Assembly (NCBI GenBank): GCA_944386045.1
Contig: CALWZO010000007.1
Location: 1 to 64,000 of the forward strand
Length of the DNA: 64,000 nucleotides
Origin: an uncultured Clostridia bacterium
GTDB taxonomy: Bacteria > Bacillota > Clostridia > Oscillospirales > Ruminococcaceae
Direction: 5' to 3'
Made by a program: the position numbers and the translations under genes. The notes under the pieces are model-generated. The model searched no databases. It had not been told where the DNA came from and worked only from the letters and a program-made list of their open reading frames with translations. Positions within the stretch are counted from its first letter, which is position 1, and each line of letters opens with the position of its first letter. Below are positions 2,821 through 29,802 of this stretch, piece by piece.

Positions 2821-3198
2821 TTATTTTACGGGTATTGTTTTAACTTTCAGCAGGAAATACAATGCGTGAACAGACCATATGACCAGCAGGATTACCCTTG
2901 CAACGGGTACTTCGTCCATCATCACAAATCCGGCAGTCATAAGGGCGGTGACAACCGCCATTATTTTCACTTTGGATTTTACTGTCATTCCCTCGCCTTT
3001 TACATAACTTTCCAGGTTGTTTTTATACAGCTTTGTCCCGGTAAACCAGCTGTGCAGTTTTTCACTGCTTTTGGCATAGCAGCAGGCCGTCAGCAGATAA
3101 AAAGGAACAGTCGGCAATATGGGCAGAATTATACCAATAGTGCCCAAAAGAAAGGAAATACTGCCTGCGGCAATCAGAATTGCTTTTTTAATTTTCAT
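2821..3198 (-). CDS. YbaN family (DUF454) inner membrane protein
   Basis: A 125-residue membrane protein of the YbaN/DUF454 family. The typical start is visible: a Lys-rich N-terminus, a first membrane segment with the pattern GTIGIILPILPTVPFYLL, then CYAKSSEKLHSWF. Two more membrane segments lie in the C-terminal half. The function is unknown; relatives often sit beside haem or iron genes and ABC exporters. It is the last gene of the operon that starts at 6920 and overlaps the preceding gene by 11 bases, which points to translational coupling. Confidence 0.85.
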   Translation of the reverse strand: MKIKKAILIAAGSISFLLGTIGIILPILPTVPFYLLTACCYAKSSEKLHSWFTGTKLYKNNLESYVKGEGMTVKSKVKIMAVVTALMTAGFVMMDEVPVARVILLVIWSVHALYFLLKVKTIPVK

Positions 3199-5187: not shown

Positions 5188-5198
5188 CTTTAACTCCT

Positions 5199-6920
5199 TT
5201 ACAAGCAGTAGTTTTCCAAAGCTGACTGGGAATTGAACAGCCTGCTGTATACACCCCGGGTATTCAAAAGACTGATATGGGTACCGCACTGGGATATTCG
5301 GCCGTCCTCCAGAGTATAAATTCTGTCTGCACCGACCACATTGGCCAATCTGTGTGATATAAGAATTACAGTTTTTTCCTTTGCCAGCCGGAAGATATGC
5401 TCCATTATTATATTTTCGCTTTCCACATCTATGTTGGAAGTGGCCTCATCAAAAATATATACCGGGCTGTCATGTAAAATGGCTCTGGCCAGGGCCAGTC
5501 TTTGCCTTTGTCCGCCGGAGAGGTTTTCTCCCCTTTCGTCTATCGGCGTATCAAGACCTTTTTCGCCGTCAACTATTTCCATAAGATTGACAGATTTTAA
5601 AACATCAAACATCTGCTTTTCTGTCAGCTCATTAGCGGCCATGGCCAGGTTATCTCTTATGGTTCCTTTGAATATGTAATCCCCATGGCTTACATAGGTT
5701 ATATTTTCAAAAATCTGTCCTTCGTCTATATCTTTAAAGTTTTTACCGCCGGCTGTTATCTGCCCGGAGTAACTTTTGTTTCGGCCCATTATAAGTGAAG
5801 CAATTGTAGACTTGCCGCTGCCGCTGGTGCCTACTATCGCCGTAAGGCTGTTTTTTGCAAAAGTCATGTTTATATCTTTCAGGATTTTTCTGTCGCCGTA
5901 GCTGAAAGAAACATCATGGAATACAATATCTGCGCCGGAAGGATAATTTCCTTTTTCTCCCCGGCCGGAAACAGTAACATCCAGAAAATCAAATATTTTA
6001 TCGGCTGCCGCCATACCGTTCATCGCTATGTGGAAAAAAGAACCCAGCTGGCGCATCGGGATAAAAAATTCTGCCGACAGCAGTATTATCATAAGGCATC
6101 CGGCCAGTGTGATATTGCCTGCGAAATAACTTTTCAGGGCAAGTATCACGCCGGTTGTGGCTCCGCCGTAAGCGACAAGGTCCATAACCGAAATTGAATT
6201 CAGCTGCATTGTAAGCACCCTCATGGTTATTTTGCGGAATTTTTCAGCCTGCCGGTTCATCTCCTGGTTTTTCATTTCATCTGCGCCGTATATTTTCAAG
6301 GTGGTCATTCCCTGCAGATTTTCCAGAAATGTATCGCCCATGTCAGTATACTGTCCCCAGTATTTTGAAAGCAGTTTTTTCGCCCATCGCTGTACTGCAA
6401 CTATTGACACCGGTATCAGCGGAACACATATAAGCAATACAACAGCTACGGAAATATCAATCCAACCGATAACCAAGAACAAAGTCAGCGGAGAGGCCAT
6501 TGCATAAAACAACCGCGGCAGATAAGCGCTGAAATATGTATCCAGCTGATCTACGCCTTCCACAGCAATCTGTACTAGCTGCGCTGTTTTTACGCTTTCG
6601 CCGTAGGAGGGGCCCAGGCTTAAAAGTTTTTTGTAAATTTTTTCCCTTAATGTCTGTTTTACCTTTTCTCCTGAACGAAAGCCTGCCCGTGAGGCCCTGA
6701 TTGTAAACAGATATCTGGCAGCCATACAGACAGCCACCACTGCCACTACCCTGACCAATCCATCATATCCTGTATTGCCGTAATACACAGCCTGTATATA
6801 TGATGTCAGCCGGGATATGGCTGTTATATTTAAAAGCAGTGAAAGCCATTGAAAAAATACATTTACAAAAATGTATTTTTTGGCACTGCCCATCTCGTTT
6901 ATCAGTCTTTTGTTAACCAT
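5199..6920 (-). CDS. ABC exporter half, fused permease and ATPase (CydD-like)
   Basis: First gene of a four-gene leftward operon, 573 residues. The N-terminal half is a six-helix ABC exporter membrane domain. The C-terminal half has Walker A GTSGSGKST, signature LSGGQRQRLALARAIL, Walker B VYIFDEATSNID and a switch His in ISHRL. The ATG at 6920 is preceded by GGAGG. The protein is the natural partner of the exporter half just downstream. The upstream region holds a strong promoter and two palindromic boxes that resemble those of the feo operon at 35.6-35.9 kb, so metal-responsive repression is likely. The transported molecule cannot be named. Confidence 0.85.
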   Translation of the reverse strand: MVNKRLINEMGSAKKYIFVNVFFQWLSLLLNITAISRLTSYIQAVYYGNTGYDGLVRVVAVVAVCMAARYLFTIRASRAGFRSGEKVKQTLREKIYKKLLSLGPSYGESVKTAQLVQIAVEGVDQLDTYFSAYLPRLFYAMASPLTLFLVIGWIDISVAVVLLICVPLIPVSIVAVQRWAKKLLSKYWGQYTDMGDTFLENLQGMTTLKIYGADEMKNQEMNRQAEKFRKITMRVLTMQLNSISVMDLVAYGGATTGVILALKSYFAGNITLAGCLMIILLSAEFFIPMRQLGSFFHIAMNGMAAADKIFDFLDVTVSGRGEKGNYPSGADIVFHDVSFSYGDRKILKDINMTFAKNSLTAIVGTSGSGKSTIASLIMGRNKSYSGQITAGGKNFKDIDEGQIFENITYVSHGDYIFKGTIRDNLAMAANELTEKQMFDVLKSVNLMEIVDGEKGLDTPIDERGENLSGGQRQRLALARAILHDSPVYIFDEATSNIDVESENIIMEHIFRLAKEKTVILISHRLANVVGADRIYTLEDGRISQCGTHISLLNTRGVYSRLFNSQSALENYCL

Positions 6921-6942
6921 AGATCCTCCGTTATGCCATTAA

Positions 6943-7002
6943 GTTAGTTTATGCTAACTGACATTCAATTTTTTAGCATTGGGTTAAGTTACCCAATGCT
7001 AA
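6943..7002 (-). promoter_or_regulatory. putative DtxR-type operators of the ABC exporter operon
   Basis: Two palindromic elements lie between the promoter and the ABC start. One is GTTAG-n6-CTAAC at 6943-6958. The other is a perfect 12-bp-arm inverted repeat at 6973-7002, TTAGCATTGGGT and its complement with a 6-base centre, right at the expected transcription start. The half sites TTAGC/GCTAA recur at 35590-35605 and 35895-35908 beside feoB and feoA. Confidence 0.55.
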
Positions 7003-7010
7003 CTATTTTG

Positions 7011-7039
7011 AGTATAAATTATTTTACAAATTTTGTCAA
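7011..7039 (-). promoter_or_regulatory. sigma-A type promoter of the ABC exporter operon
   Basis: Reading leftward, TTGACA (7039-7034) is separated by 17 bases from TATACT (7016-7011). The -35 overlaps the last codons of the helicase gene. Transcription would start near 7004, at the edge of the large palindrome. Confidence 0.75.
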
Positions 7040-9387
7040 CAGGAAATTTCTGGCCCGCTTTTCCAAAATTCATTAAGCTTATCTTTTAATTGCCTACAAC
7101 CGGATACCTTTTTCCGGTGAGACCAGTGCCGCGGCATATTTTTGATATAGCGCATGGTGGAAAATCTTTGGTCTATCAGCAGTACCACCCCTCTGTCCGA
7201 AGAAGTGCGTATAACCCTGCCGGCAGCCTGCATTACCTTGTTCATTCCGGGGTATTGATATGCAAAAGCGTATCCGTCCTGGCTGTGCCGGTTATGATAA
7301 TCTTTTATTATATCCTGCTCGACACTGGGCCTGGCAAGGCCAACACCGACTATGGCACAGCCGATCAGCTTTTCTCCTGCCAGGTCGATGCCTTCACCGT
7401 ATATGCCGCCCATGACGCAAAAAGCAAGTAATCCGCCGCTTTGGGCAGAAAAATTATCCAGGAAAGCCTGTCGGTCTTCGGTATTCATATCTTTGCTTTG
7501 CATTATAATTTTATCTTGCGGATATCTGTTCCCGTATTCTTCAGCAGCGGAAATCATATATTCATAGCTGGGAAAGTAGGCTATATAGTTGCCTCTTTTT
7601 GCTGAAATCAATTCATGTATCATTTCGCATACCTGCGGCAGACTGCTCTGCCTGTCGGCGTATTTTGTGCTGATTTTATCGGCTATAAACAGACCCATAT
7701 TTTCCTGTGGGAACGGACTGGGCACCTGTATCATCTCCCCTTTTGCACCCAGCAGATTTTTGTAATAATCCAGCGGCTGCAATGTAGCGGAAAACATAAC
7801 GGCACTTTTTCCGCAGTCCAGCCGCCGGCTTACATTGTCAGACGGGTCTGTACAGTACAGCTTCAAAATTATATTATCTGAATTTTTTATTATGAGAGAA
7901 ACATATTTGTCATTGTACATTTCTGTCACACGCATAAAGAATTTGGCATCAAAATAAATCTGAAGCAGATTTTCATCCGTTTCTTCGTTTTTATGCCTGT
8001 CAAAATATTCCGCCGCCCTTTGCAAAAACAGGTTAAGCCGCTTTGTGATACCGGCCGGTATCTCTTTGTCACATATAAAATTGCTGTCAGCACCGTCAAA
8101 CCTGTGGCGCTGCCGGATAAAGAATTTGTTTATTTCATTCAGGCTGGCAGACAGCGGCTTATCCGCCTTGCCCAACCGCTTTTTCGCCTCGAAGAAACTT
8201 TTTTTATCCAGCCGGACAGAATACATCTGCCTTGCCCTGTCCGGAAGGTTGTGAGCTTCGTCCACAAGAAACACATAGTCGGATTTTTTATTTTCAAAAA
8301 ATCGCATCAGATGCACTGTGGGATCAAACAGATAGTTGTAATCACATATAATAAAATCACACCATTCACTGATATCCAGTGACAGCTCGTAAGGGCAAAG
8401 CATTTTTTCCCTGGCTTTTTCCAGGATAAAATCTGCGGTGAAAGTGCTGTTATCCTGCAATATCCGGAAAAGCTCTCCGCTTATCCTGTCAAAATATCCG
8501 TTGGCGTAGGGACAGGATACCGGGTCGCATTTTCTCTTTTCAAGAAAGCACATTTGATCCTTGGCAGTTATCGAGATAGTTTTTACCGGCGGTTTTTCTT
8601 CACCGGACAGAATGTTTATTGCGTCAAAAGCCGCCTGTCCGTTGCTGTTTTTAGCTGTTAAGTAAAACACCTTGTCAGTTATTTTTTCGCCCATTGCTTT
8701 CAGCGCCGGAAAAACCGTTGACATGGTTTTTCCCGTTCCGGTAGGCGCGCAGGCAAAAAGTCGCCGGCTGTCGCGCATGACTTTATAGCATGAAACCGCC
8801 AGCTGACGCTGGCCTTTGCGATACCGTCCAAAAGGAAAATTCAACTTTTTCAGCCGGTCTGTGCGCATTTCCTGCCAGTTGGAGGCAAACACCGCCCATT
8901 TTTTGTACTCCCTCAGTACTGAAAAAACCACTTGCTGTAACTCGGTAAAGCTATATCGCTTTACAATTCTTTTTACCTCTTCGGTATCTATATTACAGTA
9001 AGTCAGCTGTACCCGCGCACTTTCCAGTGATGACTGTATGCACATGATATACCGGTAAAAGCACCCCTGTGCCCAGTGTGCTTTATTGAAATTTCCGTCT
9101 ATTTCAACCAGCGGAACTAATACTGTTTTAATCTCATCAATCATTATGCCGTCTTCTTCGGAAATGATACCGTCCGCGCGTCCGTAAAGTTCATACTGAA
9201 CATCTTCAAAGTCAATCTTAATGTTCAGGCTTTTTTCCCGCTGATAATTCTGTCCGTAAGACTTCTGTATTTTTCTGTGCAACCTGGCGCCTGTCAGAGC
9301 ACGGTCTGTACCGGTAAATCGCGAATCTATACTGCCTGAACGCAGTATAAACTCCACCATCTTTTTTATGCCTGTTTTTATCTGCAT
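7036..9387 (-). CDS. Rad3/DinG-type ATP-dependent DNA helicase with N-terminal nuclease-like domain
   Basis: Superfamily 2 helicase of about 783 residues. The N-terminal part (RSGSIDSRF, then DEIKTV) resembles a PD-(D/E)XK nuclease-like module found in clostridial members of this family. The helicase core follows: Walker A APTGTGKT, four cysteines spaced C-x7-C-x4-C of the kind that bind the 4Fe-4S cluster in XPD/DinG enzymes (MCFLEKRKCDPVSCPYA), the DEAH box VDEAHNL, and motif VI QAAGRVIRT. It probably acts in DNA repair or replication. I choose the ATG at 9387, which has AGGTGG just upstream, over a TTG six codons earlier that lacks a ribosome site. It is followed by the promoter of the ABC operon. 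Confidence 0.85.
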   Translation of the reverse strand: MQIKTGIKKMVEFILRSGSIDSRFTGTDRALTGARLHRKIQKSYGQNYQREKSLNIKIDFEDVQYELYGRADGIISEEDGIMIDEIKTVLVPLVEIDGNFNKAHWAQGCFYRYIMCIQSSLESARVQLTYCNIDTEEVKRIVKRYSFTELQQVVFSVLREYKKWAVFASNWQEMRTDRLKKLNFPFGRYRKGQRQLAVSCYKVMRDSRRLFACAPTGTGKTMSTVFPALKAMGEKITDKVFYLTAKNSNGQAAFDAINILSGEEKPPVKTISITAKDQMCFLEKRKCDPVSCPYANGYFDRISGELFRILQDNSTFTADFILEKAREKMLCPYELSLDISEWCDFIICDYNYLFDPTVHLMRFFENKKSDYVFLVDEAHNLPDRARQMYSVRLDKKSFFEAKKRLGKADKPLSASLNEINKFFIRQRHRFDGADSNFICDKEIPAGITKRLNLFLQRAAEYFDRHKNEETDENLLQIYFDAKFFMRVTEMYNDKYVSLIIKNSDNIILKLYCTDPSDNVSRRLDCGKSAVMFSATLQPLDYYKNLLGAKGEMIQVPSPFPQENMGLFIADKISTKYADRQSSLPQVCEMIHELISAKRGNYIAYFPSYEYMISAAEEYGNRYPQDKIIMQSKDMNTEDRQAFLDNFSAQSGGLLAFCVMGGIYGEGIDLAGEKLIGCAIVGVGLARPSVEQDIIKDYHNRHSQDGYAFAYQYPGMNKVMQAAGRVIRTSSDRGVVLLIDQRFSTMRYIKNMPRHWSHRKKVSGCRQLKDKLNEFWKSGPEISC

Positions 9388-9432
9388 AATCCACCTGAAA
9401 AACAAGGCTGTCTGTGCGACAACCTTTATATC

Positions 9433-10464
9433 TTATTTCAAATATCCGTACAAAAGCTTGAAGGTGTTTTCAAGGCCTTTTACATGGCTGCGCTCATAGC
9501 CGTGAGAAGCATATACACCGGGACCGATAAGTCCGTGACGGATATCATATCCCGCTTTCAGGCTGACATCCACATCAGAACCGTAATACGGATAGATGTC
9601 CAGCGCATAATCTGCCTGCTGTGATTTGGCTGCTTCTATAAGTTCGCTTACAAGCTCGTAGTTATAGGGACCGGAAGAGTCTTTTGTACATATGGAAACC
9701 TGTGTTTCGGTGCAGTTGAGCCCTGTGCCTACACAACCCATATCAACGCTTATCATATCTTTTATATCCTGCGGCAATCCGCCGGCGGCGCCGTGACCAA
9801 CCTCTTCATAAACTGTAAATATGATATAAACTTTTCTGGAAAGTGCCAGTTTTCCGTCTTTTACCGCTTTTGCCAACGCCAGCAAAACAGCCGCAGAAGC
9901 TTTGTCGTCAAGAAACCTGCTTTTTATAAATCCGCTGTCTGTTATTGTAAAACGAGGGTTTACGGCGACAATGTCACCTGTCTGTATGCCCAGTTTTTCA
10001 GTATCGGTTTTGGAGTGTACTTCTTCATCCAGCAACAGTTCCAGGCTTCCGTCGAAGCTTCTGAGCGTGGTGGACAATTCTTTATTTACATGGCTTGATG
10101 CATTTTCCACCTGGAATGTGGCATCAAAAACCTTTCCATCCCTTGTTATTACCCTGGCTGTTTCTGTTTCCACATTGGAGGCATTGAGGCCGCCCAGGGG
10201 AGCAAGCTGTAAAGCTCCGTTTGACTTTATGGTTTTTACCATGGCGCCAAGTGTATCCACATGGGCTGCCAGTGCCAGTGCATTTTCTCCTTCGTTCAGC
10301 CGGCATATTACGCCGCCTTTGTTAAGTGTATAGGGGCAATATCCCATATCTTCCAGCTCTTTTACCAGATATTCGCTGACAAATTTTGTATAGCCGGTGG
10401 GACTGTCAATGTTTATCAGATTTTTCAGCTGCATAAGCATATATTCTTTCAGTGAAGCATCCAT
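9433..10464 (-). CDS. M42 family metallopeptidase (glutamyl aminopeptidase type)
   Basis: Cytosolic di-metal aminopeptidase of the M42 family, 343 residues, normal length. Visible motifs are AAHVDTLG (first metal His and Asp), RFLDDKASAA (bridging Asp), TVYEEVGHG (catalytic Glu pair), SVDMGCVG, and the late GYDIRHGLIGPGVYASHGYERSH with a metal-binding His. It trims N-terminal residues from peptides, probably as a large tetrahedral oligomer as in relatives. It stands alone, with 45 bases to the helicase start downstream. The start ATG is preceded by GGAGG. Confidence 0.9.
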   Translation of the reverse strand: MDASLKEYMLMQLKNLINIDSPTGYTKFVSEYLVKELEDMGYCPYTLNKGGVICRLNEGENALALAAHVDTLGAMVKTIKSNGALQLAPLGGLNASNVETETARVITRDGKVFDATFQVENASSHVNKELSTTLRSFDGSLELLLDEEVHSKTDTEKLGIQTGDIVAVNPRFTITDSGFIKSRFLDDKASAAVLLALAKAVKDGKLALSRKVYIIFTVYEEVGHGAAGGLPQDIKDMISVDMGCVGTGLNCTETQVSICTKDSSGPYNYELVSELIEAAKSQQADYALDIYPYYGSDVDVSLKAGYDIRHGLIGPGVYASHGYERSHVKGLENTFKLLYGYLK

Positions 10465-10544
10465 TTTTTATTCCTCCGTTCATAGATGAATAAATTATAC
10501 TATTTATTCTTTCCTGTGTAAAGTGCGCTGACGAATATATAAAG

Positions 10545-10602
10545 TTTACATTTTTTACCCGGAAACCTTACAGTTTTTACTTTATTTTACATTTATTTTA
10601 CA
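10545..10602 (+). promoter_or_regulatory. Pho-box-like cluster of TTTACA repeats
   Basis: Six TTTACA-like hexamers on the + strand start at 10545, 10554, 10567, 10576, 10586 and 10597. PhoP boxes of Bacillus are direct TT(A/C/T)ACA repeats about 11 bases apart. The spacing here is 9-13, so the match is good but imperfect. The cluster lies upstream of the phosphate transporter gene, which fits phosphate-starvation control. Confidence 0.5.
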
Positions 10603-10684
10603 TTAGTCTGCGTGCAGTATTTACAAATGTATTTTAAAATTATAAAAAACTTATAATTATTGTAAAACGAAAACAGGAGAAAGT

Positions 10685-12436
10685 ATGAGCATATTTAATC
10701 TTTTCAGCCTTATGGGCGGCCTTGCTTTGTTTTTATTCGGTATGGATCTTATGGGCAAAGCCCTGGAGAAACAGGCAGGCAGCCGTCTGAGCATAATTCT
10801 TGGCAAACTGACCTCCAGCCCGTTGAAAGGTTTTCTGCTGGGTCTGGGCGTAACAGCTGTTATCCAGTCATCTTCCGCCACCACCGTAATGGTAGTAGGT
10901 TTTGTAAACTCGGGTATAATGAGCCTGCGTCAGGCCATAGGCATAATAATGGGTTCCAATGTAGGTACAACCGTAACCGCCTGGATACTGAGCCTTACGG
11001 GACTTCAGGGTGACAGTTTTCTGATAAATCTGATGAAGCCGTCTTCATTTTCACCGATTCTTGCCTTTATAGGTATAATAATGTACATGGCGGCAAAATC
11101 TGACAAAAAGAAAAATATCGGCGTTATAATGCTTGGTTTTGCCATACTTATGACAGGTATGGAAAGTATGTCCGGTGCGGTTTCACCTCTGGCAGACACA
11201 CCTTGGTTTTCCAATCTGTTTATAAGCTTTTCCAACCCTATTCTCGGTGTTGTTGCCGGCGCTGTGCTGACGGCCATAATCCAGTCTTCTTCTGCATCTG
11301 TGGGTATATTGCAGGCTTTGTCAACCACCGGCGTCATAACTTACGGCAGTGCAATGCCCATAATAATGGGACAGAACATCGGTACATGTATAACAGCTAT
11401 TCTCTCTTCTTTCGGCACCACCAAAAACGCCAAAAGAGCTGCTGCCGTTCACCTGTATTTCAACATCATAGGTGTTACCATATTCCTGATAGTGTTCTAT
11501 GGTCTCAATTCTATATTCCAGTTTGAATTTGTAAGCAGTGTTATCGACCAGAAAGGCATCGCCCTGGTGCACACTACCTTCAATGTGATGGCAACTGCAA
11601 TAATGCTGCCCTTCTCTTCTCTGCTGGAAAAACTGGCAATTGCGACAATCAAAGACGACGGTGGCGACGAAGAATTTCAGCTGCTGGATAAAAGATTGCT
11701 GCTCACACCGGCTTTGGCTGTTGAAAGAAGTCAGACACTGGTGCAGACAATGTCAAACCTTGCTTTTGAAGGATTTAAAAAATCTGCCGAAAACCTGAAC
11801 AGCGCCGATGAAAAGCTGTATAATGAGATAAAATCCATGGAGAAATCGGTAGATAAGTATGAGGACAAACTGGGCTCTTACCTGGTGCGGCTTTCAGAAC
11901 AAGACCTTACGGTTGATAACAGCCATGAGATCAGCAAGATGCTGCATGTTATAAATGATTTTGAAAGAATAAGCGACTATTCCGTAAACATCATCGAAGC
12001 CGGCCGCGAAATGTTTGACAAAAAGATCAGCTTTTCAGATGAGGCTATGCGCGAGCTGGAAATTCTGAGAAATGCTACTTTTGAGCTTATCGATTATACT
12101 GAAAATTCCTATACACAGGATGATGTGGAAATAGCTATGGAAGTTGAACCTTTGCAGCATGTTATAAATGAACTTATTCTTGAAATAAAGGACAACCACA
12201 TAGAAAGACTGAAAAATCAGCAGTGTACAATAGAACTCGGCTTTGTTCTGTCAGATATACTTAACGCTTACGAAAGATGTGCAGCTCACTGTTCCAATAT
12301 AGCTATAGCTGTGCTGGAAGCCAAAAATGACAGCTTTGCCCCTCACGAGTCTTCCAGAAGATACAGAAAGGACGCAAGGTCCTCATATCAGGAAAATTAC
12401 CGGAAACAGAAAGAAAAATATTCTGTTGCCCTGTAA
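10685..12436 (+). CDS. Na/Pi cotransporter family protein with C-terminal PhoU-like domain
   Basis: Sodium-dependent phosphate transporter of the NptA/PNaS family, 583 residues. Two inverted membrane repeats each carry a QSSS motif: IQSSSATTVMVVGFVN near residue 60 and IQSSSASVGILQAL near residue 200, followed by GSNVGTT and GQNIGTC. After residue ~330 the protein is soluble and helical, like PhoU, which in this family probably regulates transport or signalling. The start has AGGAGA in place. It is a single-gene unit closed by a strong terminator. The TTTACA cluster upstream suggests induction under low phosphate. Confidence 0.9.
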   Translation: MSIFNLFSLMGGLALFLFGMDLMGKALEKQAGSRLSIILGKLTSSPLKGFLLGLGVTAVIQSSSATTVMVVGFVNSGIMSLRQAIGIIMGSNVGTTVTAWILSLTGLQGDSFLINLMKPSSFSPILAFIGIIMYMAAKSDKKKNIGVIMLGFAILMTGMESMSGAVSPLADTPWFSNLFISFSNPILGVVAGAVLTAIIQSSSASVGILQALSTTGVITYGSAMPIIMGQNIGTCITAILSSFGTTKNAKRAAAVHLYFNIIGVTIFLIVFYGLNSIFQFEFVSSVIDQKGIALVHTTFNVMATAIMLPFSSLLEKLAIATIKDDGGDEEFQLLDKRLLLTPALAVERSQTLVQTMSNLAFEGFKKSAENLNSADEKLYNEIKSMEKSVDKYEDKLGSYLVRLSEQDLTVDNSHEISKMLHVINDFERISDYSVNIIEAGREMFDKKISFSDEAMRELEILRNATFELIDYTENSYTQDDVEIAMEVEPLQHVINELILEIKDNHIERLKNQQCTIELGFVLSDILNAYERCAAHCSNIAIAVLEAKNDSFAPHESSRRYRKDARSSYQENYRKQKEKYSVAL

Positions 12437-12468
12437 ACGCCAATCTCTTACCCTTATATAATATAAAA

Positions 12469-12515
12469 AAACAAACACGGAACCATTTTTGCGGTGGGTT
12501 CCGTGTTTGTTTTTT
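12469..12515. terminator. bidirectional terminator
   Basis: A 16-bp inverted repeat, AAACAAACACGGAACC and its complement, has a T run on the + side and A run on the other. It serves the Na/Pi gene and the converging XRE operon. Confidence 0.9.
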
Positions 12516-12520
12516 AATTT

Positions 12521-12721
12521 TTATGGAAATATAAATATCTCTTCAATAGGCGCCTTCACCGCCCTGGAAATATCTATCGCCAGTTTAAGCGACGGATTAT
12601 ACCGGGCTTTTTCCAGCCTCATTATCGTTTCTCGTCGCACCCCGACAATTTCTGCCAGCTGCTCCTGTGTAAGCCCCTGAAGCTGTCGGTATATTTTCAG
12701 TCTGCATTCAAATTCAGCCAT
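12521..12721 (-). CDS. XRE-family transcriptional regulator
   Basis: A 66-residue protein made of a single helix-turn-helix domain: [29 protein letters not shown], read as helix, turn and recognition helix. The ending IEEIFIF is typical of the short clostridial regulators paired with DUF3796-type membrane proteins. The ATG at 12721 follows AGGTGG closely; an in-frame GTG three codons earlier overlaps that site and is unlikely. It is the second gene of the operon started by the DUF3796 gene, and probably binds the palindrome at 13401-13435 to control its own transcript. Confidence 0.85.
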
Positions 12722-12733
12722 GATGCCCACCTA

Positions 12734-13387
12734 TCATATCCGGTTTTCGTCATTGTCATAATGGTACAGCAGATATTCCACAAGGAATATGCACAATGCC
12801 TTCGACAGTGACAATGTTATTATCAGTGCAGCCAGTGTGTATTCCGCATTTTTTACAAGATACCCCTGTGAAAAGACTATAAGCGCGATAAAATTTATCG
12901 TAAAGCTGATTTTATATGCCTTCGACTGGGCGCGCGCAGCGTTCTCGCGAAAGCGCTCATCCATAAAAGTGCCGGACATCTTACCTTCGTAATAAAACCC
13001 GAAAAAACCAAAAAAGATAAAAAGCACAAAAGGTGTCACCTGGCCTGAAGCAGGATAAGTCAGAAATCCCAGGAAACCCAAAAAGCCGAAAAAGCCTAGA
13101 AAACCAAGCTTTGGGTTTATTTTTCTGGTATAACTTTTTTCACTGCTTTTGCTATTTTTTACCGCATTAACAAAAGATGTCAGACACACAAAAGCAATGT
13201 ATATGATTACCATGGCGCAGGCCAAAATCATGGGCAGATCTCTATAGCTGAAAACATAGCTGCCGAAATCCATAGGGTATACCAGCCTGCCTTGGTTGAA
13301 TTTCAAAGAATACCATACAGCCCCGGCCATTGTCGCCGCACACAATATACCCAGCAGTCCTGTAATTGCAAATTTTTTATTTTTCAT
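12734..13387 (-). CDS. DUF3796 membrane protein with GFLGF repeats
   Basis: A 217-residue membrane protein. After two N-terminal membrane segments it has the DUF3796 hallmark KLGFLGFFGFLGFLGFL at about residues 92-108, then further hydrophobic segments and a conserved-looking MSGTFMDERF. The function is unknown. It is first in a two-gene operon with an XRE regulator, a frequent pairing in Clostridia. The promoter contains a large palindrome covering the -10. Confidence 0.8.
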   Translation of the reverse strand: MKNKKFAITGLLGILCAATMAGAVWYSLKFNQGRLVYPMDFGSYVFSYRDLPMILACAMVIIYIAFVCLTSFVNAVKNSKSSEKSYTRKINPKLGFLGFFGFLGFLGFLTYPASGQVTPFVLFIFFGFFGFYYEGKMSGTFMDERFRENAARAQSKAYKISFTINFIALIVFSQGYLVKNAEYTLAALIITLSLSKALCIFLVEYLLYHYDNDENRI

Positions 13388-13400
13388 AATGCCTCCAATA

Positions 13401-13435
13401 AGATATAATTATCTCTTTATGTGATAATTATATCT
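13401..13435. promoter_or_regulatory. palindromic operator at the DUF3796-XRE promoter
   Basis: A perfect inverted repeat with 13-bp arms, AGATATAATTATC (13401-13413) and its complement (13423-13435), is separated by 9 bases. One arm contains the -10 hexamer of the leftward promoter, so a bound protein would block polymerase. The likely ligand is the XRE protein of the same operon. Confidence 0.65.
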
Positions 13436-13454
13436 CATTTAATAGATATGTCAA
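13427..13454 (-). promoter_or_regulatory. sigma-A type promoter of the DUF3796-XRE operon
   Basis: Leftward TTGACA (13454-13449) and TATAAT (13432-13427) are separated by 16 bases, a near-consensus promoter. Confidence 0.8.
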
Positions 13455-13471
13455 GACATTTTGCAAAGAAA

Positions 13472-13496
13472 AAGCCGCCCTTTGGCGGCTTTTTTT
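13472..13496 (-). terminator. terminator of the gpsA transcript
   Basis: AAGCCGCC and GGCGGCTT flank a 4-base loop, with T runs on both sides. It lies directly downstream of the gpsA stop. Confidence 0.85.
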
Positions 13497-13503
13497 GATT
13501 TAA

Positions 13504-14472
13504 TCAATAGTTATTTGTAAATTCGCCCTTGACATCGCGGCTGAAAAGCCTGGACAAGGCATCCTGCGGGTTGAAATTGCTGTAAAGTATATCATAAACA
13601 ACATGGGAAATGGGCATTTCCACATGATACTTTTCCGAAAGTTTCATAAGTGCCTTGACTGTGGCTACACCCTCTGCCAGCTTGTCGTATTTTTCGCCGG
13701 TTATAAATCTTTCACCGAACATACGGTTTTGGCTGTGAAGTGAGAACAGAGTTGCTTCGTAATCCCCCAGATGGCTTAATCCATAGGCTGTAAGCTCGTT
13801 GCCGCCCATGGCTTTTATCAGCCTGGACACTTCTCTGGCGCCTCTTGCCATAAGCGCACCTTTCAGGCTGGAAAGGTGAAGTCCGTCCAGCATACCGGCT
13901 GCTATACCGACTACATTTTTGGCGGCTGCGCCTATTTCAGTCCCAATAATATCATCGCCAAGATAGAGCCTTATCAGGTCGCCGGAAAATTTTTCAACAA
14001 CATCTTTTGTCACCGTTTTGTCAGCGCTGTCCACGACCATGCAGTTGGGTATGCCTGCCATAAAGTCCTGCACATGCCCCGGGCCTACCCACACACATAT
14101 ATTTACATATTGTCTGATTGTATATTTAACTATTTCGGACAGTCTTTCACCGGTTTCACTTTCAATGCCTTTCATACACAGAATGAATGTTTTTCCGTGT
14201 ACATTGTATTGGTTTATCCTCTGGCAAAATTCCCTCAGGTGCTGTGCACTGATGGATATTACAATATATTCTGAATGTTTTAAAGCTTTTTCCAGGTCTG
14301 GTTCCAGCACAAGACTGTCCGGAAGGGTCAGATAGCTGTTTTTCCTTTCAGTTACCAGCTGTTCAAAATCCGGGCTGCCTTCCCTGCCCCACAGTACCAC
14401 ATCGTTTCTTCGGCTGTGATAAACAGCCAGGAAAGTGCCCCATCTTCCCGAGCCCAAAACTGTTACATTCAT
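13504..14472 (-). CDS. gpsA: glycerol-3-phosphate dehydrogenase [NAD(P)+]
   Basis: Makes sn-glycerol 3-phosphate from dihydroxyacetone phosphate for phospholipid synthesis. The Rossmann motif GSGRWG is at residues 7-12 (usually GAGSWG). The catalytic Lys is in IGAAAKNVVGIAAG at residue 185. The following segment LKGALMARGAREVSRL matches the family, and GLSHLGDYEATLFS is a slightly divergent form of the usual GLAGLGDLxxT. Length 322 is close to the family norm. It overlaps the SGNH hydrolase gene upstream by 4 bases (ATGA), so the two are translationally coupled. The variant motifs leave a small chance of altered cofactor preference. Confidence 0.85.
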   Translation of the reverse strand: MNVTVLGSGRWGTFLAVYHSRRNDVVLWGREGSPDFEQLVTERKNSYLTLPDSLVLEPDLEKALKHSEYIVISISAQHLREFCQRINQYNVHGKTFILCMKGIESETGERLSEIVKYTIRQYVNICVWVGPGHVQDFMAGIPNCMVVDSADKTVTKDVVEKFSGDLIRLYLGDDIIGTEIGAAAKNVVGIAAGMLDGLHLSSLKGALMARGAREVSRLIKAMGGNELTAYGLSHLGDYEATLFSLHSQNRMFGERFITGEKYDKLAEGVATVKALMKLSEKYHVEMPISHVVYDILYSNFNPQDALSRLFSRDVKGEFTNNY

Positions 14473-17532: not shown

Positions 17533-20097
17533 TTATTGCAGAAAACTTCTGACAGCCTCTTCAACAGCTTCAACTTCTTCGGCAAAAGCAGATGCGGACA
17601 GCCTTAAGGCACCATGGCCCAGTATTATAATCTGCTCCAGGCCGTCGGATGTGGCCACTCTTACTTTGTAATTCTTTGCAATCTGTCGTGTGACCTTTTC
17701 AATGTACATATCGGCTGTTTCTGCTTCTTTTGTATATACTATTGTTATATTGTGATATTTGGATATTTCGCCCACATTACCTTTTACCTTATATGCGTCA
17801 AACACCAGGATTACTTCGCATTTCTGAAAACCCCGGTAGTTACACAGGATATTTGCCAGCTGATGCCTGGCCGCTTCGATATCTTCTGCGGCCGTTTTTT
17901 TCAGCCTGTCCCAGGCAAATATTATGTTATACCCGTCTACAAGCAAAAATTCTTTGTCAAATTTCTTCGCCTGCGTACGCTTTTCGGGCATTATTTTTTC
18001 TTTCGGAGCAGATTTAAGGGCAAGATATTTGTCGGTTTTTATTTTTCCGTAGGTCTGCTCGAATATTTTCAGCAGTTCTTTGTCGTCTTCCAGCGAAGAA
18101 TAATATCCGGCAACTTGTGAAGGGGTTATCCTGCGTACTTTCACGGCTTCCTCTTTTTTCTCCTTCAAAAACCGCGGCAGGTGCATTTTGTTTTTTACAT
18201 CATCCCACTTTACCACTATCCCTGCACCATGGGTGCAGAAAACCGAATCTGCTGTGTTTTCCGTATCGCTCCGCCGGTTATATCCGATATTTTCAATCAC
18301 CTGCCGGCTGTTGTGACAGGGCATATATCCTTTGAATTTCAGGGATATCCTGCCTTTACCTTTGGTAAAGCCCAAAAGCTCGGTATTATAGGAATTGATT
18401 TCGCTTACCGGCGCCTCTCCGCGCAGTATTGAATACATTTCGTTCTGTTCCGGCCGCCGGAAACTGCCGCTCATGCGCTGGATATCGGTTATAACCCTGC
18501 CGATACTTTCTGACGGCACCCAAATTTCAAAATCATACCATGGCTCCAGCAAAACGCTTTGCGCCTGCATAAGCCCGTTTCTGACAGCGCGGTAAGTGGC
18601 CTGTCTGAAATCTCCGCCTTCGGTGTGCTTTATGTGCGCACGCCCGTTTACAAGGGTAATTTTCATATCAGTTATGGGAGAACCTGTCAGGACGCCTATG
18701 TGAGTTTTTTCCGCAAGGTGTGTAAGTATAAGCCTTTGCCAGTTCCTGTCCAGTTTGTCCTCGCTGCACAGGCTTTCAAACACCAGACCCTGCCCCTGTT
18801 TCAGCGGCTCCATAAGCAGGTGGACCTCCGCGTAATGCCTCAGCGGCTCAAAATGGCCGACGCCTTCCACGGTATCGGTTATGGTTTCTTTGTACAGAAC
18901 ACTTCCGCTGTCAAAGTCCATATCTATTCCAAATCGGGAGAAAAACACCGATTTTATAACTTCCAGCTGTATTTCTCCCATAAGGCTGATGTGAATTTCC
19001 TTTTTTATCTCGTTCCAGCTTACATGAAGCTGCGGCTCTTCCTCTTCCAACTGTCGGAAAAAGCCCAGGACTGTGGGCGTGTCGTATTTTTTGTCAAATA
19101 TGGCCCTGTAATTGAATATGGCCTGCATCTGAAAGGCTTCATCGCTTTTTTCGCTGCCCAGTCCCTGCCCCGGATAAGTGTGTGTCAGTCCGGAAACCGC
19201 GCAGACTGTGCCGGCGCCGACAGTTGTTTCTGTTTTGAATTTTTCACCGGTGTATAGCCTGATGCTGTTTATCTTTTCTTTAAAAATGTCACCGCTTTTA
19301 TCTTTTTGGGAGATGGTGTCTTTTACTGACATGCTCCCGCCGGTAACTTTTAAAAATGTCAGCCTTTCATTTTTGTCATAAGTGATTTTAAAAACCTTGG
19401 CGCCAAATGTTTCGCTGTACTGTTTTTCCGATGTATATTTTGACAGGCAGTTCAAAAATTCCTCCGTGCCCTGCATTTTCAGTGCAGAGCCGAAAAAGCA
19501 AGGGAATATCTTTCGGGAAAATATTGCCCGGCTGACAACCTCATCAGAAATCCGGCCCTGTGATATATAGCTGTCCATAGCCTGTTCATCACGCAGGGCG
19601 ATCTCTTCCATCAGCTGCCGCTGCGGTATGTCAAAATTCACACAGTCCGCCGAAATCTCTTTTTTCAGCCGTTCAAAAACCCGCTGACCGTCAGATGTCG
19701 GCAGGTCCATTTTATTTATAAATATAAATGTAGGTATATTGTAGCTTTTCAGCAGATGCCAAAGGGTAAGAGTGTGGCTTTGCACACCTTCAGATGCTGA
19801 AACAAGCAGCACCGCACAGTCCAGCACCTGCAAGACCCTTTCCGCCTCCGGCGAGAAATCCACATGTCCCGGTGTGTCCAAAAGGTAAATCTGCATATCC
19901 TGCAGGTTCAGCACCGCCTGTTTGGAAAAGACCGTTATGCCCCTGCTGCGCTCTATTTCATTGGTGTCCAGCGTGCTGTCCCCGTGATCCACCCTCCCCG
20001 CCTTTCTTATGCTTCCGCAGGCATACAGCAGACTTTCTGAAAATGTGGTTTTTCCGCTGTCTACATGAGCCAGTATTCCCATTGTAAGTTTTTTCAT
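17533..20097 (-). CDS. TetM-like ribosomal GTPase fused to a YacP/Rae1-type NYN domain
   Basis: An 854-residue two-part protein. Residues 1 to ~680 are an EF-G/TetM-type GTPase: P-loop HVDSGKTT near residue 11, RGITV, DTPGHVDF at 74-81, NKMD at 128-131, and a domain IV resembling tetracycline ribosomal protection proteins. Residues ~712-854 are a complete NYN domain of the YacP type: LLVDGYNII, VFDAY, AETADMYIE and VATSDGLEQ hold the acidic metal-binding residues, then GALRLSA. YacP of Bacillus subtilis is Rae1, a ribosome-dependent mRNA endonuclease. A GTPase that enters the A site joined to an A-site nuclease suggests ribosome rescue or translation-linked mRNA cleavage. Whether it also protects from tetracycline cannot be judged. 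Confidence 0.85.
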   Translation of the reverse strand: MKKLTMGILAHVDSGKTTFSESLLYACGSIRKAGRVDHGDSTLDTNEIERSRGITVFSKQAVLNLQDMQIYLLDTPGHVDFSPEAERVLQVLDCAVLLVSASEGVQSHTLTLWHLLKSYNIPTFIFINKMDLPTSDGQRVFERLKKEISADCVNFDIPQRQLMEEIALRDEQAMDSYISQGRISDEVVSRAIFSRKIFPCFFGSALKMQGTEEFLNCLSKYTSEKQYSETFGAKVFKITYDKNERLTFLKVTGGSMSVKDTISQKDKSGDIFKEKINSIRLYTGEKFKTETTVGAGTVCAVSGLTHTYPGQGLGSEKSDEAFQMQAIFNYRAIFDKKYDTPTVLGFFRQLEEEEPQLHVSWNEIKKEIHISLMGEIQLEVIKSVFFSRFGIDMDFDSGSVLYKETITDTVEGVGHFEPLRHYAEVHLLMEPLKQGQGLVFESLCSEDKLDRNWQRLILTHLAEKTHIGVLTGSPITDMKITLVNGRAHIKHTEGGDFRQATYRAVRNGLMQAQSVLLEPWYDFEIWVPSESIGRVITDIQRMSGSFRRPEQNEMYSILRGEAPVSEINSYNTELLGFTKGKGRISLKFKGYMPCHNSRQVIENIGYNRRSDTENTADSVFCTHGAGIVVKWDDVKNKMHLPRFLKEKKEEAVKVRRITPSQVAGYYSSLEDDKELLKIFEQTYGKIKTDKYLALKSAPKEKIMPEKRTQAKKFDKEFLLVDGYNIIFAWDRLKKTAAEDIEAARHQLANILCNYRGFQKCEVILVFDAYKVKGNVGEISKYHNITIVYTKEAETADMYIEKVTRQIAKNYKVRVATSDGLEQIIILGHGALRLSASAFAEEVEAVEEAVRSFLQ

Positions 20098-25301: not shown

Positions 25302-25622
25302 TTATATGAATGTCAGCTGTTCGGCCTGGAAAGGTTTGTCGTTGTTTGTGGGTTTTCCCAGCAGTATGTGCATATTCTGATACTGCTTTTCTGTTATGGT
25401 CAGCAGACGCACCGAGCCGTTGGGCGGCAGGTTTTCTTTTATCCTTTTAAAATGCTTTTCAACGGCATCATTGCCGTTACACACCCTGGAATAAACCGAA
25501 AACTGCACCATATAGTATCCGTCTTTCAGCAAAAAGTTGCGGAAGCGTGTTGCGTTTTTCCTTTCGGATGCAGTGGTTACCGGCAGGTCAAAAAATACCA
25601 GCATACGCATAAATTTACTCAT
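25302..25622 (-). CDS. cas2: CRISPR-associated endonuclease Cas2
   Basis: A 106-residue Cas2 of the type II kind. MRMLVFFDLPV at the start gives the ferredoxin-fold strand with the conserved Asp12, followed by RNFLLKDGYYMVQFSVYSRVC. With Cas1 it forms the complex that inserts new spacers. It is the last gene of the cas9-cas1-cas2 operon and overlaps cas1 by 8 bases. It ends at the shared terminator next to the cas-proximal end of the array. No csn2 or cas4 follows, which sets the subtype as II-C. Confidence 0.95.
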   Translation of the reverse strand: MSKFMRMLVFFDLPVTTASERKNATRFRNFLLKDGYYMVQFSVYSRVCNGNDAVEKHFKRIKENLPPNGSVRLLTITEKQYQNMHILLGKPTNNDKPFQAEQLTFI

Positions 25623-26511
25623 ACCGGTGCTGCCGCAGTGCTGTCAGCCGGCACAACTCCACTACATTTTTACCGCCCATAAAGCTGGCCTGTACTGTCT
25701 GCACTGTCTTTTCAATGCCATAGGCCAGCGTATGCTTTTGTCCTTTGTACACCACATCACAGTTAAGCAGATTATACAATATCTGCTTGTCCCTTACCGA
25801 AAGGCTGTCGCTGTCTGTTTCTTCCATCTGATAAACACACAGGTCTACCACCGGGCGGAAAGGCTCCATAATATCGTCTGCCAGATTAAACCGGTTAAGC
25901 CGGCTGTGGTGATTTATTCCCAAAGCCGGTTCCAGCCCATAAGAGACCAGGCTGCGGCAGACCCGTCCCCTTACTATGGCATATCCGTAGTTCAGGCGGG
26001 CATTTACCGGCGTTTCTGCACTGCGGTTAAACCCCTGTCCAAACAGATATCGAAAATATTTTGATGCCGCCACTGCTTCGGCATTGTCACTGTCGCCGCT
26101 TTTCACCCTGCCGGACAATGAAATCAGCTCCCGTTCACCGGATAAACCAAGCAAAGAAAGTACCTTTGCCTGGTTTATTATTTTTTGTGCAACAATCTTT
26201 TGCCACATGGCTTTTTTCAACGGCTGTTTTGCAGACATCTGCGCTTGCAGAACACCGGCTTTTCGGCTGTGCACATTATAGCCCGTAAGTATTCCGTTGG
26301 GGGTGTGTTTTTCGTCGCAGAAATATACAGCCACACCCCATGCGGCACACGCAGACATAAGGGCGGCGGTGATGGTACACCGGCGGTTTTCCACCATCAG
26401 CGTGCTTATGTCTTCCAGCGGAAAAGTGTACTCGCCGCCGTTTACCACAAGCTGATTATTTTTCAACGACAATTTGGCAGAAGATGATATAAATATATTT
26501 CTGTATGCCAT
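25615..26511 (-). CDS. cas1: CRISPR-associated endonuclease Cas1
   Basis: A 298-residue type II Cas1 integrase. The catalytic set is visible: Glu145 in NAEAVAASKYF, the His pair in LGINHHSR near residues 201-202, and the acidic cluster NLADDIMEPFRP at 209-220. The LNYGYAIVRG motif is standard for type II Cas1. It cuts and joins prespacers at the repeat edges with Cas2. It starts 9 bases after the cas9 stop, so it shares the cas9 transcript. Confidence 0.96.
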   Translation of the reverse strand: MAYRNIFISSSAKLSLKNNQLVVNGGEYTFPLEDISTLMVENRRCTITAALMSACAAWGVAVYFCDEKHTPNGILTGYNVHSRKAGVLQAQMSAKQPLKKAMWQKIVAQKIINQAKVLSLLGLSGERELISLSGRVKSGDSDNAEAVAASKYFRYLFGQGFNRSAETPVNARLNYGYAIVRGRVCRSLVSYGLEPALGINHHSRLNRFNLADDIMEPFRPVVDLCVYQMEETDSDSLSVRDKQILYNLLNCDVVYKGQKHTLAYGIEKTVQTVQASFMGGKNVVELCRLTALRQHRYE

Positions 26512-26520
26512 ACAGCCACC

Positions 26521-29500
26521 TCATTTTCTGCGCTTTTCTTTCGGTGCCTTGTATATATTTCCCAGCACATCCACATGATATTTTTCAATGCTTTCCAGGG
26601 TTTTTATACCTAAGCTTTTTATTGTGTAACTTTTGTCATGCGTTATTATAGTTATGTTTCCACCAGCTGTGTCAGCTTTTATATAATATACAAGCTCTTC
26701 ATTACTGAAATATTTCTTCTCAATATCGGCTTTCTCTGATACCCTGCTAAAATTCATTCCTCTTTTGCTTTTTACCAACAAAAGATCATTTGGATATATG
26801 GAATACAGGAAATCTTCATCTTTCATATCTTTCCAATTATCATAATTTTTACCTTGCACGCAGGCTTTTACAGGCAGTTCGTCCTTTACCATATCCGATG
26901 CGTACACCGGGACAAAATAATAGCCGTCGCCCTCCACCTTGTACAGGTCTATCCTCAGCATACTTCCGTTGTCCGCAATGCCCATATCCAAAGCTACATT
27001 GACATTTGTAGGTTCATAGGTTTTGACTTTATTTACCTTCGGCCGCCGGCCGCCTTTTGGGGTGGGTTTATACACAAAGCCCTCCGGAAAAGCCTTTTTG
27101 CCGTTTCCGCCGGTCTGTACAAGCCTTTCTTTCAGCATTTCATACAGCAGTCTGTCGCTGTCCGGGTTATAATATTTGGATATTTCACCTTCTTTATCCA
27201 GTTTAAGATTTTGCAGCCGGGTCTTGGTGACTGCCACTTTTTTTCTCTTGCCGTCTTTGCAGATAAATCTTTCTGCTCTTACGGTTTCTTTATGTGCCTG
27301 CCCGGTTTTCTTTTTTCTTTCCATACGGGATACAAGCACCGGTTTGATTGACCGTATATCCAAATCCCGGTAGTTGGGCAAAACAATATCTTTCAGCAAA
27401 GCCTGTGGATCTTTGGAAGTCCTTATATCAATTTCTGTCCTGAAAGTATCCCACGGAGGCGGAAATTTTGCATCAATGACCTTTTGGTCGCGGTACATGT
27501 ATCTGGTTTCCATATATCTGGAATAATCCGTAACCTTTTTTATCATACCCTGGGAAATACAGCCTATGACAGCCGCATCCACTGCATGGTGCATATCGCC
27601 ATTGCCTCTGATTTTGCTTATACCCCATCTTTTGCGCATATAAGCCGTTACCGAGCCGTTGACGCATATCACCTTTTGCTTTCCGGTGTAGCTTTCATCA
27701 AATTCCAGGTTGTCCCTGATATAGTTTGACAAAAATCTGCTGATAAACTTTGTATCCTGCAAAGCCCTGGGTTTTAACCGGTTCATATCTTCTTCCGTCA
27801 GCTTTTCTTTCAGCAGTTTCAGCCTTTTGTTTCTGTTGCGGATAAATGTTTTTACAAGGCCTGTAAAATCTTCCTTGCTCTTTACATAATCCATGGGAAT
27901 ACGGTTGCCCTTTTCCCTGTTGGCATAAGCCATAACCAGCGCTTTGTTGTTGTAACTGTCATCAAAAGAAATGCTGTACGGGATTATATGGTCTATTTCA
28001 CAGTAACCGGGAGCAAACAGATTTTCGGCCTTAATAGGCGTATTGGTGTACAGGCATATTCCCTGCTGTTCCTGCCACAGGCGGTATTTGATTATATCCT
28101 GACCCGAAGGTTTAAGTATATGGAATGTGTTCTTTATTTCTTCATATACCTGTTGGTTATTTTTCCTGTTTTCTTCCTGCTGATTTTCAATCTGTTTTCT
28201 CTCGGAGAAATCTTTGGATAATTCCCTGGCGGTTTCTATGTTTATAACAGCCGGAGCGCGGTATTGTTTTACAATGGCATTGATAACTTTTATTGTCTGG
28301 TTTACTGCCCTTTTTACTACCGGGCTGGTGATTTCGTTGTTATCATCAGGCAGCTTTGGCAGATACCTTCTTTTGACCGCAGAGGAATGAGCCCTGAAAT
28401 CGTAGCCGGCCCGCCGGCAGGCTTCGTTGTAAATCATACCTTTTTCCATATAGGGGATTATTTTTTTCAAAGCTTTCAGGGAAATATGGCCGAACTTCGA
28501 AAAGTTTTTCATACCTCCTATGGCTTCCAGCTCCTGCCGGGTGAAGTCAAACTCCGAAAGGTACTCCAGCACTTTTTCGCTTGTTTTGTAATAGGTCAGG
28601 GCTGTACCTATGGTGTCTCTTTTTTCTGTCGTTACGCCAACAATATACCCTTTGTTTATCTTATCAAAAGCCTTTCTCATCTCGTGGTATGCCGGCATAC
28701 CGCGAAATACTGCTTTTTCTGTCTTTGCCTTATCCTCTTCAGGATAGTTAATCGCAGAGAAAAATTCTTCTTCGGCAAGATTTAACTCTTTTCTTATTCT
28801 TTCATAAGTAACCTTTTCACTTTTATGGCAAAGTGATATGATTTTCTCTCTTTCTTCCGAAGTAAGTGTTCTTTGACCATTTGCAGAATAAATCTTCAGG
28901 TTGTTTGTTTTCTGTAAAAGGTCAAAATATTCAAAGGAATAACAAGCCTTGGCAGCGCGTTTTTCCCCTTTTTCAAGGGTACATTCCCCAACCATATTTT
29001 CAATCTGATTTCCGCCGTAAGGGCTGGGAAATCCCGGGCCTTCATCAAAACTGCGCTGGGATGAAAAAATCTGTATATATTTTTCTTTCAGGCTGTCTGT
29101 GGAAATAATGCTGCCAAACTCTTTTTGCTTTTGGAAGATAATATTTATTTCTTCAAGTATCTGACTGCGCAAAAATGTATTGGAGTAATCCCCGCCTTTA
29201 TTCCTTTTGGCGGCAGAGTATTTTTCGTCCTTATACAACATCTGCCCTACTGTCAAGTAACCTTTTTCCGCCATATACCGGGCATTTTCGGCTGTTGCAG
29301 ACAAAAGTTTGCCCTCATCACTTTTGGCGTCTTCATTTTTCCTGTTGGATTTAAATCCTCTGCGCTGTGCCAGGTGTATCAACAACCTTGCCATCTCCTG
29401 CCTGTCCAGAAGTCTTTCCAGCGCTTCGCTTCTTATGCGGTATATATCCGTCAGCGGCACGCTGTTCTTTTGGCGGTCATAAAGCTTTTCCAGCTCTTCT

Positions 29501-29754
29501 TTAGAGATAACACCTTCCCGTTGTAAAAGGGATTTTATTCTGTGAAGTCTGTGTTTTCGCCTGCGGCCTGTTCTTCTGGCGCCTCTTGCCATTCTGCGTG
29601 GAGCAGCCAGTGATGCACCTGTCTTGGGCTGTTCTGCTGCATCAAAAACTCTTGCACCCAACGAAATAATCCTGTTCGGTTCTCCTGATATATCTGTATT
29701 AAGGACACACCATCCAACAGATGTAGTGCCGATATCCAAACCAAGTCTGTACAT
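26521..29754 (-). CDS. cas9: type II-C Cas9 endonuclease, 1077 residues
   Basis: RNA-guided double-strand DNA nuclease of compact II-C size. The domains in order: RuvC-I GLDIGTTSVGW with Asp7; Arg-rich bridge helix at 53-75; recognition lobe; RuvC-II INIETARE with Glu507; HNH with DHIIPYS (His589) and NREKGN (Asn612); RuvC-III HHAVDAAVIG with His723 and Asp726; then a C-terminal PAM-interacting region. All catalytic residues are present, so it should be active. The segment SRMERKKKTGQAHKET near 809-824 also fits II-C relatives. The ATG at 29754 follows GAGGAAAAG; a longer reading by 14 residues lacks a ribosome site. The PAM is unknown. Confidence 0.97.
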   Translation of the reverse strand: MYRLGLDIGTTSVGWCVLNTDISGEPNRIISLGARVFDAAEQPKTGASLAAPRRMARGARRTGRRRKHRLHRIKSLLQREGVISKEELEKLYDRQKNSVPLTDIYRIRSEALERLLDRQEMARLLIHLAQRRGFKSNRKNEDAKSDEGKLLSATAENARYMAEKGYLTVGQMLYKDEKYSAAKRNKGGDYSNTFLRSQILEEINIIFQKQKEFGSIISTDSLKEKYIQIFSSQRSFDEGPGFPSPYGGNQIENMVGECTLEKGEKRAAKACYSFEYFDLLQKTNNLKIYSANGQRTLTSEEREKIISLCHKSEKVTYERIRKELNLAEEEFFSAINYPEEDKAKTEKAVFRGMPAYHEMRKAFDKINKGYIVGVTTEKRDTIGTALTYYKTSEKVLEYLSEFDFTRQELEAIGGMKNFSKFGHISLKALKKIIPYMEKGMIYNEACRRAGYDFRAHSSAVKRRYLPKLPDDNNEITSPVVKRAVNQTIKVINAIVKQYRAPAVINIETARELSKDFSERKQIENQQEENRKNNQQVYEEIKNTFHILKPSGQDIIKYRLWQEQQGICLYTNTPIKAENLFAPGYCEIDHIIPYSISFDDSYNNKALVMAYANREKGNRIPMDYVKSKEDFTGLVKTFIRNRNKRLKLLKEKLTEEDMNRLKPRALQDTKFISRFLSNYIRDNLEFDESYTGKQKVICVNGSVTAYMRKRWGISKIRGNGDMHHAVDAAVIGCISQGMIKKVTDYSRYMETRYMYRDQKVIDAKFPPPWDTFRTEIDIRTSKDPQALLKDIVLPNYRDLDIRSIKPVLVSRMERKKKTGQAHKETVRAERFICKDGKRKKVAVTKTRLQNLKLDKEGEISKYYNPDSDRLLYEMLKERLVQTGGNGKKAFPEGFVYKPTPKGGRRPKVNKVKTYEPTNVNVALDMGIADNGSMLRIDLYKVEGDGYYFVPVYASDMVKDELPVKACVQGKNYDNWKDMKDEDFLYSIYPNDLLLVKSKRGMNFSRVSEKADIEKKYFSNEELVYYIKADTAGGNITIITHDKSYTIKSLGIKTLESIEKYHVDVLGNIYKAPKEKRRK

Positions 29755-29802
29755 ACTTTTCCTCGTTTCTTTCTGGATTTTGTGACAAGTTTTCATATAT
29801 AA

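Follow-up and report, generated by a model that had tools for sequence, protein, structure and literature searches.

What does a single protein do in which a translational GTPase is joined to a nuclease domain of the YacP/Rae1 type? The question is raised by a gene found in the 64,000-nucleotide stretch of DNA analysed here (the window), which comes from an uncultured Clostridia bacterium. An initial annotation had described the product as a TetM-like GTPase fused to a complete NYN domain, and had proposed that one protein senses a blocked ribosome and then cuts or releases the message. The architecture itself is not new, as the same fusion was published in 2015 for ten Clostridiales with a suggested role in antibiotic resistance that was not put to any test (Atkinson 2015, BMC Genomics 16:78, PMC4342817). 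Those Tet-NYN proteins share with ours the Tet-like trGTPase, the C-terminal YacP-like NYN domain and the clostridial host; they were reported from ten species, whereas here no YacP form other than the fusion was found in a whole order. The annotation had known of no tested function, and indeed no functional work on the fusion after 2015 was found in the open-access papers searched. What is new here, as far as sequence comparisons tell, is the fused clade, its position as the sole kind of YacP seen in the host's order, a conserved C-terminal extension (CTE) of the GTPase and a placement outside TetM and TetO.

Architecture of the Fusion Protein

The frame is a real gene and carries five EF-G-type domains, the CTE, a linker and an NYN domain in succession (Table 1). 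The four GTPase motifs are invariant or nearly invariant among the 39 relatives compared. Sequence matches in the PDB divide the protein in the same way, with TetO, TetM and EF-G matching residues 1-600 and the YacP of Bacillus subtilis (5mq8, 5mq9) the last 138 residues. Moreover, the Pfam NYN_YacP match (residues 718-850) reaches 163.1 bits against a gathering cut-off of 24.6, so that both the fusion and the Rae1 type of its nuclease, as first annotated, are borne out. The domain is less complete than had been stated: the core is entire, but the profile is matched only at positions 1-135 of 166 and about 28 final positions of the family are missing.

The AlphaFold2 (AF2) model of the fusion (pLDDT 82, pTM 0.58) shows an EF-G fold, a folded CTE and the NYN domain, and its best Foldseek matches in the PDB are EF-G structures (E about 1e-52). 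The linker is disordered in the model apart from a weak helical hairpin, with about 50 residues outside it, and with this linker and this pTM the relative placement of the NYN domain is undefined and was not used. The CTE, which has no Pfam family and no credible sequence match in the PDB, is modelled as a folded module with the invariant residues S618, F620, C621 and W631, and is common to the unfused relatives of the GTPase.

Table 1. Features of the fusion gene and of the surrounding window (positions in the window; residues of the fusion protein)
Feature	Positions	Strand	Basis and remarks
Whole fusion gene	17533..20097	-	854 aa, ATG start, TAA stop, frame open throughout
GTP-binding domain, residues 4-222	19432..20088	-	Pfam GTP_EFTU 6.5e-49; motifs AHVDSGKT, RGIT, DTPGH, NKMD
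EF-G domain II, residues 233-305	19183..19401	-	Pfam EF-G_D2 25.3 bits, slightly below the cut-off of 27; folded in the AF2 model
EF-G domain III, residues 337-395	18913..19089	-	Pfam EFG_III
EF-G domain IV, residues 398-513	18559..18906	-	Pfam EFG_IV 2.7e-19; long invariant runs among relatives
Domain IV tip (loop III), residues 484-498, NGRAHIKHTEGGDFR	18604..18648	-	Alignment; TetM counterpart YGLYYSPVSTPADFR, equal length, different residues
EF-G domain V, residues 515-598	18304..18555	-	Pfam EFG_C 3.4e-20
CTE of the GTPase, residues 594-640	18178..18318	-	CHN..EVI..GY...D..N..DSVFC.HGAG..V.W; AF2 pLDDT about 89
Linker, residues 641-715	17953..18177	-	Disordered at 647-655 and 688-712; helical hairpin of low confidence at 659-683 (ELLKIFEQTYG)
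YacP/Rae1-type NYN nuclease domain, residues 716-854	17536..17952	-	Pfam NYN_YacP 7.5e-48
Upstream of the fusion: 12/12 promoter-like site, tRNA gene, terminator-like hairpin, yaaA	20140-21065	-	
Cas1 and a 1091-aa Cas9-like protein	25618-29796	-	
Two T-box leaders	43070-43323 and 62391-62585	-	

The genes around the fusion are YaaA and an unrelated ORF of 231 aa, and yaaA is not conserved as a neighbour in other species. The fusion does not lie in the mrnC-rlmB-yacP-sigH group, a context of the type read from translations at three loci with standalone Rae1 (L126, L131 and L138). Gene context was discarded as a functional clue, with no recurring neighbour across 79 fused loci other than antisense ORF shadows. 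A role in anti-phage defence was likewise set aside, as no PADLOC model recognised the protein.

Distribution and Origin of the Fusion

Similar fusions had been expected in other Clostridia, and a search of GTDB species genomes recovered relatives on at least 576 stretches. Among the best 80 of them, all but one are full-length fusions with the same layout; their hosts, mostly Oscillospiraceae and allied Clostridia, include Faecalibacterium prausnitzii and Ruminococcus flavefaciens. With hundreds of relatives sharing this layout, chance and assembly artefacts are excluded. Another full-length relative of the same architecture, 56% identical, is WP_320690501.1 from Monoglobus pectinilyticus, an entry which under 'translation factor GTPase family protein' (NCBI) offers a name and no function.

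Rated 100% complete, the 1.8 Mb genome of the host encodes a single YacP domain, the fused one, together with two other EF-G-type proteins. A survey of 198 genomes of the host's order, each at least 95% complete, detected the YacP domain in 93 and the GTPase in 100, about half of the order being devoid of the fusion gene. Every intact YacP domain sits in a frame of 822-1334 aa, and standalone YacP/Rae1 was found in none of these 198 genomes. Nor did any of them show an NYN domain lacking the GTPase: the single seeming exception (G887) is cut by a contig end. The reverse situation occurs in eight genomes, in seven of which the GTPase stops directly behind its CTE and no NYN domain follows downstream, and one of which looks cut; the GTPase thus has some use without the nuclease, as these seven genomes keep it together with its CTE. 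They also led us to reject a strict co-loss of both halves, the pattern seen in the first genomes, while an apparent absence of the NYN domain in three genus mates was dismissed because contig ends truncate the genes in question.

On a wider scale, the matches listed for a class sample (the best-scoring 150 genomes) comprise 80 fused-only, 65 standalone-only and 5 unclear genomes and none with both forms, and those listed for a phylum sample 22 fused-only, 125 standalone-only and 3 unclear ones. The exclusion is not absolute, as genome G339 carries both. Only two of 72,556 plasmid records contain a place that by itself spans 80% or more of the fusion, and the match inspected is a Monoglobus replicon of 518 kb. 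Nearly full-length copies in MT835563.1 and MT835514.1, unannotated faecal scaffolds labelled 'Bacteriophage sp.' (one of them UNVERIFIED), are probably chromosomal DNA filed as phage, and a phage origin was rejected.

A tree of NYN domains (112 rows) gathers the fused ones in one clade (SH-aLRT 99) with a single nested standalone domain (L139, genome G265), which indicates that the fused NYN domain had a single origin. In the GTPase trees, the fused proteins and the unfused GTPases of about 635-695 aa group together, apart from TetM/TetO and from EF-G (SH-aLRT 97-99). As the unfused GTPases found in relatives carry the same CTE, the simplest history would be that the NYN domain was added once behind an existing CTE and was rarely lost thereafter. 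One clear and precise loss, in genome G939, is nested inside the fused clade of the GTPase tree. Unfused GTPase and standalone Rae1 are both present in four genomes (G743, G621, G644 and G722), and no standalone Rae1 was seen in two others with the unfused GTPase (G748 and G769).

Some loci depart from this general picture. In genome G265 the GTPase with its CTE (C2:815989-817932, L185) and the NYN domain (C1:394906-395313, L139) lie on separate contigs; a simple gene split is not supported there, since the GTPase falls among the unfused proteins and the NYN domain in the fused clade. The tip of domain IV, otherwise nearly invariant among relatives, is degenerate at loci L218 (family f167, KYTDEIALQEA) and L221 (f26, KHTEPPDFNEA), where the GTPase motifs and the NYN domain are retained.

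The two halves might have been joined for co-expression only, the GTPase serving as a ribosome factor (in translocation, back-translocation, recycling or biogenesis) and the nuclease maturing rRNA or tRNA. Relatives in which the GTPase and CTE exist without the NYN domain agree with this explanation, and so does the linker, which is long, disordered and poorly conserved. Moreover, maturation of rRNA and tRNA was the first proposal made for NYN domains, and is cited for YacP by Atkinson (PMC4342817). Against it stand the lone clear precise loss in the fused clade and the lack of any standalone NYN domain among the order genomes surveyed, which imply that the physical link between GTPase and nuclease is maintained, as well as the action of B. 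subtilis Rae1 on translated mRNA. Altogether, co-expression alone is an unlikely explanation of the fusion, albeit the strongest of the competing ones.

Relationship with Tetracycline Protection Proteins

In TetM and TetO, as in EF-G, domain IV is what enters the A site. TetM and TetO have five EF-G domains and a CTE in common with the fusion and provide its best profile and PDB sequence match, and the description of the N-terminal part as TetM-like holds. By the tests run here, it is nonetheless not a Tet protein. The best NCBIfam model is a Tet protection family (E 1.6e-119), whose cut-off of 775 the fusion misses with 399.9 bits, and on the TetM/W/O/S model it reaches 285 bits where 1100 are required; a genuine tet gene found in genome G027 scores 825 and 1293 on these two models. 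The EF-G model TIGR00484 is not passed either (290.1 bits against 659.4). In the trees the GTPase falls outside the TetM/TetO clade, though it groups with Tet proteins rather than with EF-G, which indicates a sister subfamily of TetM/TetO and not a member. Its domain IV tip reads HIKHTEGGDFR where TetM has YSPVSTPADFR, with a loop III of the same length that is devoid of Pro509. Compared with TetM/TetO, the fusion thus stands as a sister clade below the cut-offs, with a different tip and CTE, not mobile and with an added NYN domain. With EF-G it shares the fold, the GTPase motifs and a His at the column of EF-G His583, but it is missing the RQSGG.GQ insert in loop I of domain IV.

A protein protecting against tetracycline or another A-site antibiotic, with the nuclease as an added step of resistance, is what the 2015 description suggested. 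The best NCBIfam model and the grouping with Tet proteins rather than EF-G are in line with such a function. The residues of loop III alone cannot exclude it, because the S508A/P509A/V510A triple mutant of TetM was reported to be active (PMC4750697) and the loop is as long as that of TetM. Nevertheless, both curated Tet cut-offs are missed, the residue replaced is the one that overlaps the tetracycline site in TetM (PMC7456112), and the gene is a chromosomal one present in about half of an order and almost absent from plasmids. Furthermore, the 42 nt between the stop of the upstream yaaA and the start of the fusion leave no room for a Tet-type leader, two genomes with the fused gene (G049 and G083) hold a separate TetM/TetO-like gene, and in a third (G027) a tet element sits inside the fused gene itself. 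With the Tet tests failed, protection against tetracycline is not the foremost explanation, and a resistance function is improbable, more so than joining for co-expression.

The insertion in genome G027 (L237, G027:C33:10500-25500, about 2367-13538) is an element of 11 kb located between domain V and the CTE, which therefore separates the GTPase from the NYN domain. Its cargo includes a gene that passes the TetM/W/O/S cut-off and one for a serine recombinase, and its junctions share AATGC.

Conservation of the Nuclease Domain

The initial annotation had found all the acidic residues of the NYN domain in place, and the comparison confirms it: D721, N724, D767, D796, E800 and D818 never vary across the 115 fused and 49 standalone domains compared, the catalytic D721, D767, D796 and D818 being conserved in 115 of the 115 fused ones (100%). 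The NYN domain is also the best conserved part of the protein by mean majority fraction (0.74, against 0.71 for both the GTPase and the CTE and 0.40 for the linker). In seven of seven pairs its pN/pS (0.01-0.18) ranks at or near the bottom of the four segments; these values are used only to rank segments because many synonymous distances are saturated. Conservation of this kind points to strong purifying selection on the NYN domain, and together with the catalytic acids it makes a decayed or decorative nuclease unlikely. A non-cutting module that binds RNA, or docks the GTPase on mRNA or ribosome, would fit the loss of the Rae1 tail and the fused-specific substitutions near the active site, but it is very improbable given catalytic acids invariant in all 115 fused domains under very strong purifying selection.

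Compared with the Rae1/YacP of B. subtilis (5mq8, 5mq9), the fused domain has the same NYN_YacP core and identical catalytic residues, whereas it stands behind a GTPase, in another gene group, and differs at two positions as a class. Taken as classes, the fused domains have F at residue 727 and the standalone ones N, G or H, while at residue 769 the former have Y and the latter H; the basic C-terminal tail that standalone Rae1 carries ('..LEKxRR') is missing here and in most of the fused proteins compared. Owing to the missing tail and these two changes, the target site or the docking may differ from those of B. subtilis Rae1.

A Proposed Ribosome-Targeted Nuclease

We consider that the fusion is a chromosomal, housekeeping Rae1 targeted to ribosomes, whose GTPase would bring the nuclease to them and whose NYN domain would cut the mRNA, a reading to which we give a probability of roughly 55%. 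As such, it is probably a factor of translation quality rather than a resistance protein. The idea of a protein that senses a blocked ribosome and then cuts or releases the message is putative, and is favoured here: the exclusive replacement of Rae1 and the conservation of the NYN domain speak for it. In particular, as no other kind of YacP turned up in the order, the protein is probably an inherent device for cutting mRNA on stalled ribosomes. In this line, two publications describe Rae1 of B. subtilis as an enzyme that attacks mRNA within the A site of the ribosome (PMC12320835; PMC8266666).

In the proposed mechanism, the GTPase module would bind ribosomes with an open or blocked A site, a stall being the presumed trigger, whether it comes from an empty A-site codon, a drug or a collision, and its distinctive domain IV tip would probe the decoding site. 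A tether of about 75 residues would carry the Rae1-type NYN domain, which may then cut the mRNA at or beside the A site. Domain IV and the NYN domain probably cannot share the A site simultaneously, and hence sequential action is expected: a single bound state that both senses and cuts is unlikely, and it is more plausible that the cut follows GTP hydrolysis, once domain IV has moved out. Alternatively, the NYN domain might cut beside the A site; the linker is long enough for either arrangement. The cut would yield a truncated message open to decay and to clearance by SmpB/tmRNA, with the ribosome freed by trans-translation; SmpB is present in the host.

A more specific version of this ribosome-targeted Rae1 can only be advanced tentatively and is rather less likely to be right than the general one. 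According to it, the fusion would be a GTP-gated mRNA nuclease in which domain IV clears or probes the A site and the tethered Rae1 is licensed to cut only thereafter, providing quality control for much of this order of gut bacteria, and standalone Rae1 elsewhere may use an unfused GTPase as its partner.

Implications

How Rae1 reaches or recognises its target ribosomes found no explanation in the literature searched. If the proposal is true, an EF-G-like partner becomes a natural candidate for the recruiter of Rae1, and the unfused GTPases of those Bacillota genomes that also encode a standalone Rae1 offer a testable one. Moreover, the Tet-like and resistance labels given by databases would then be wrong for a protein with a housekeeping role in many Clostridia of the gut, among them Faecalibacterium and Ruminococcus.
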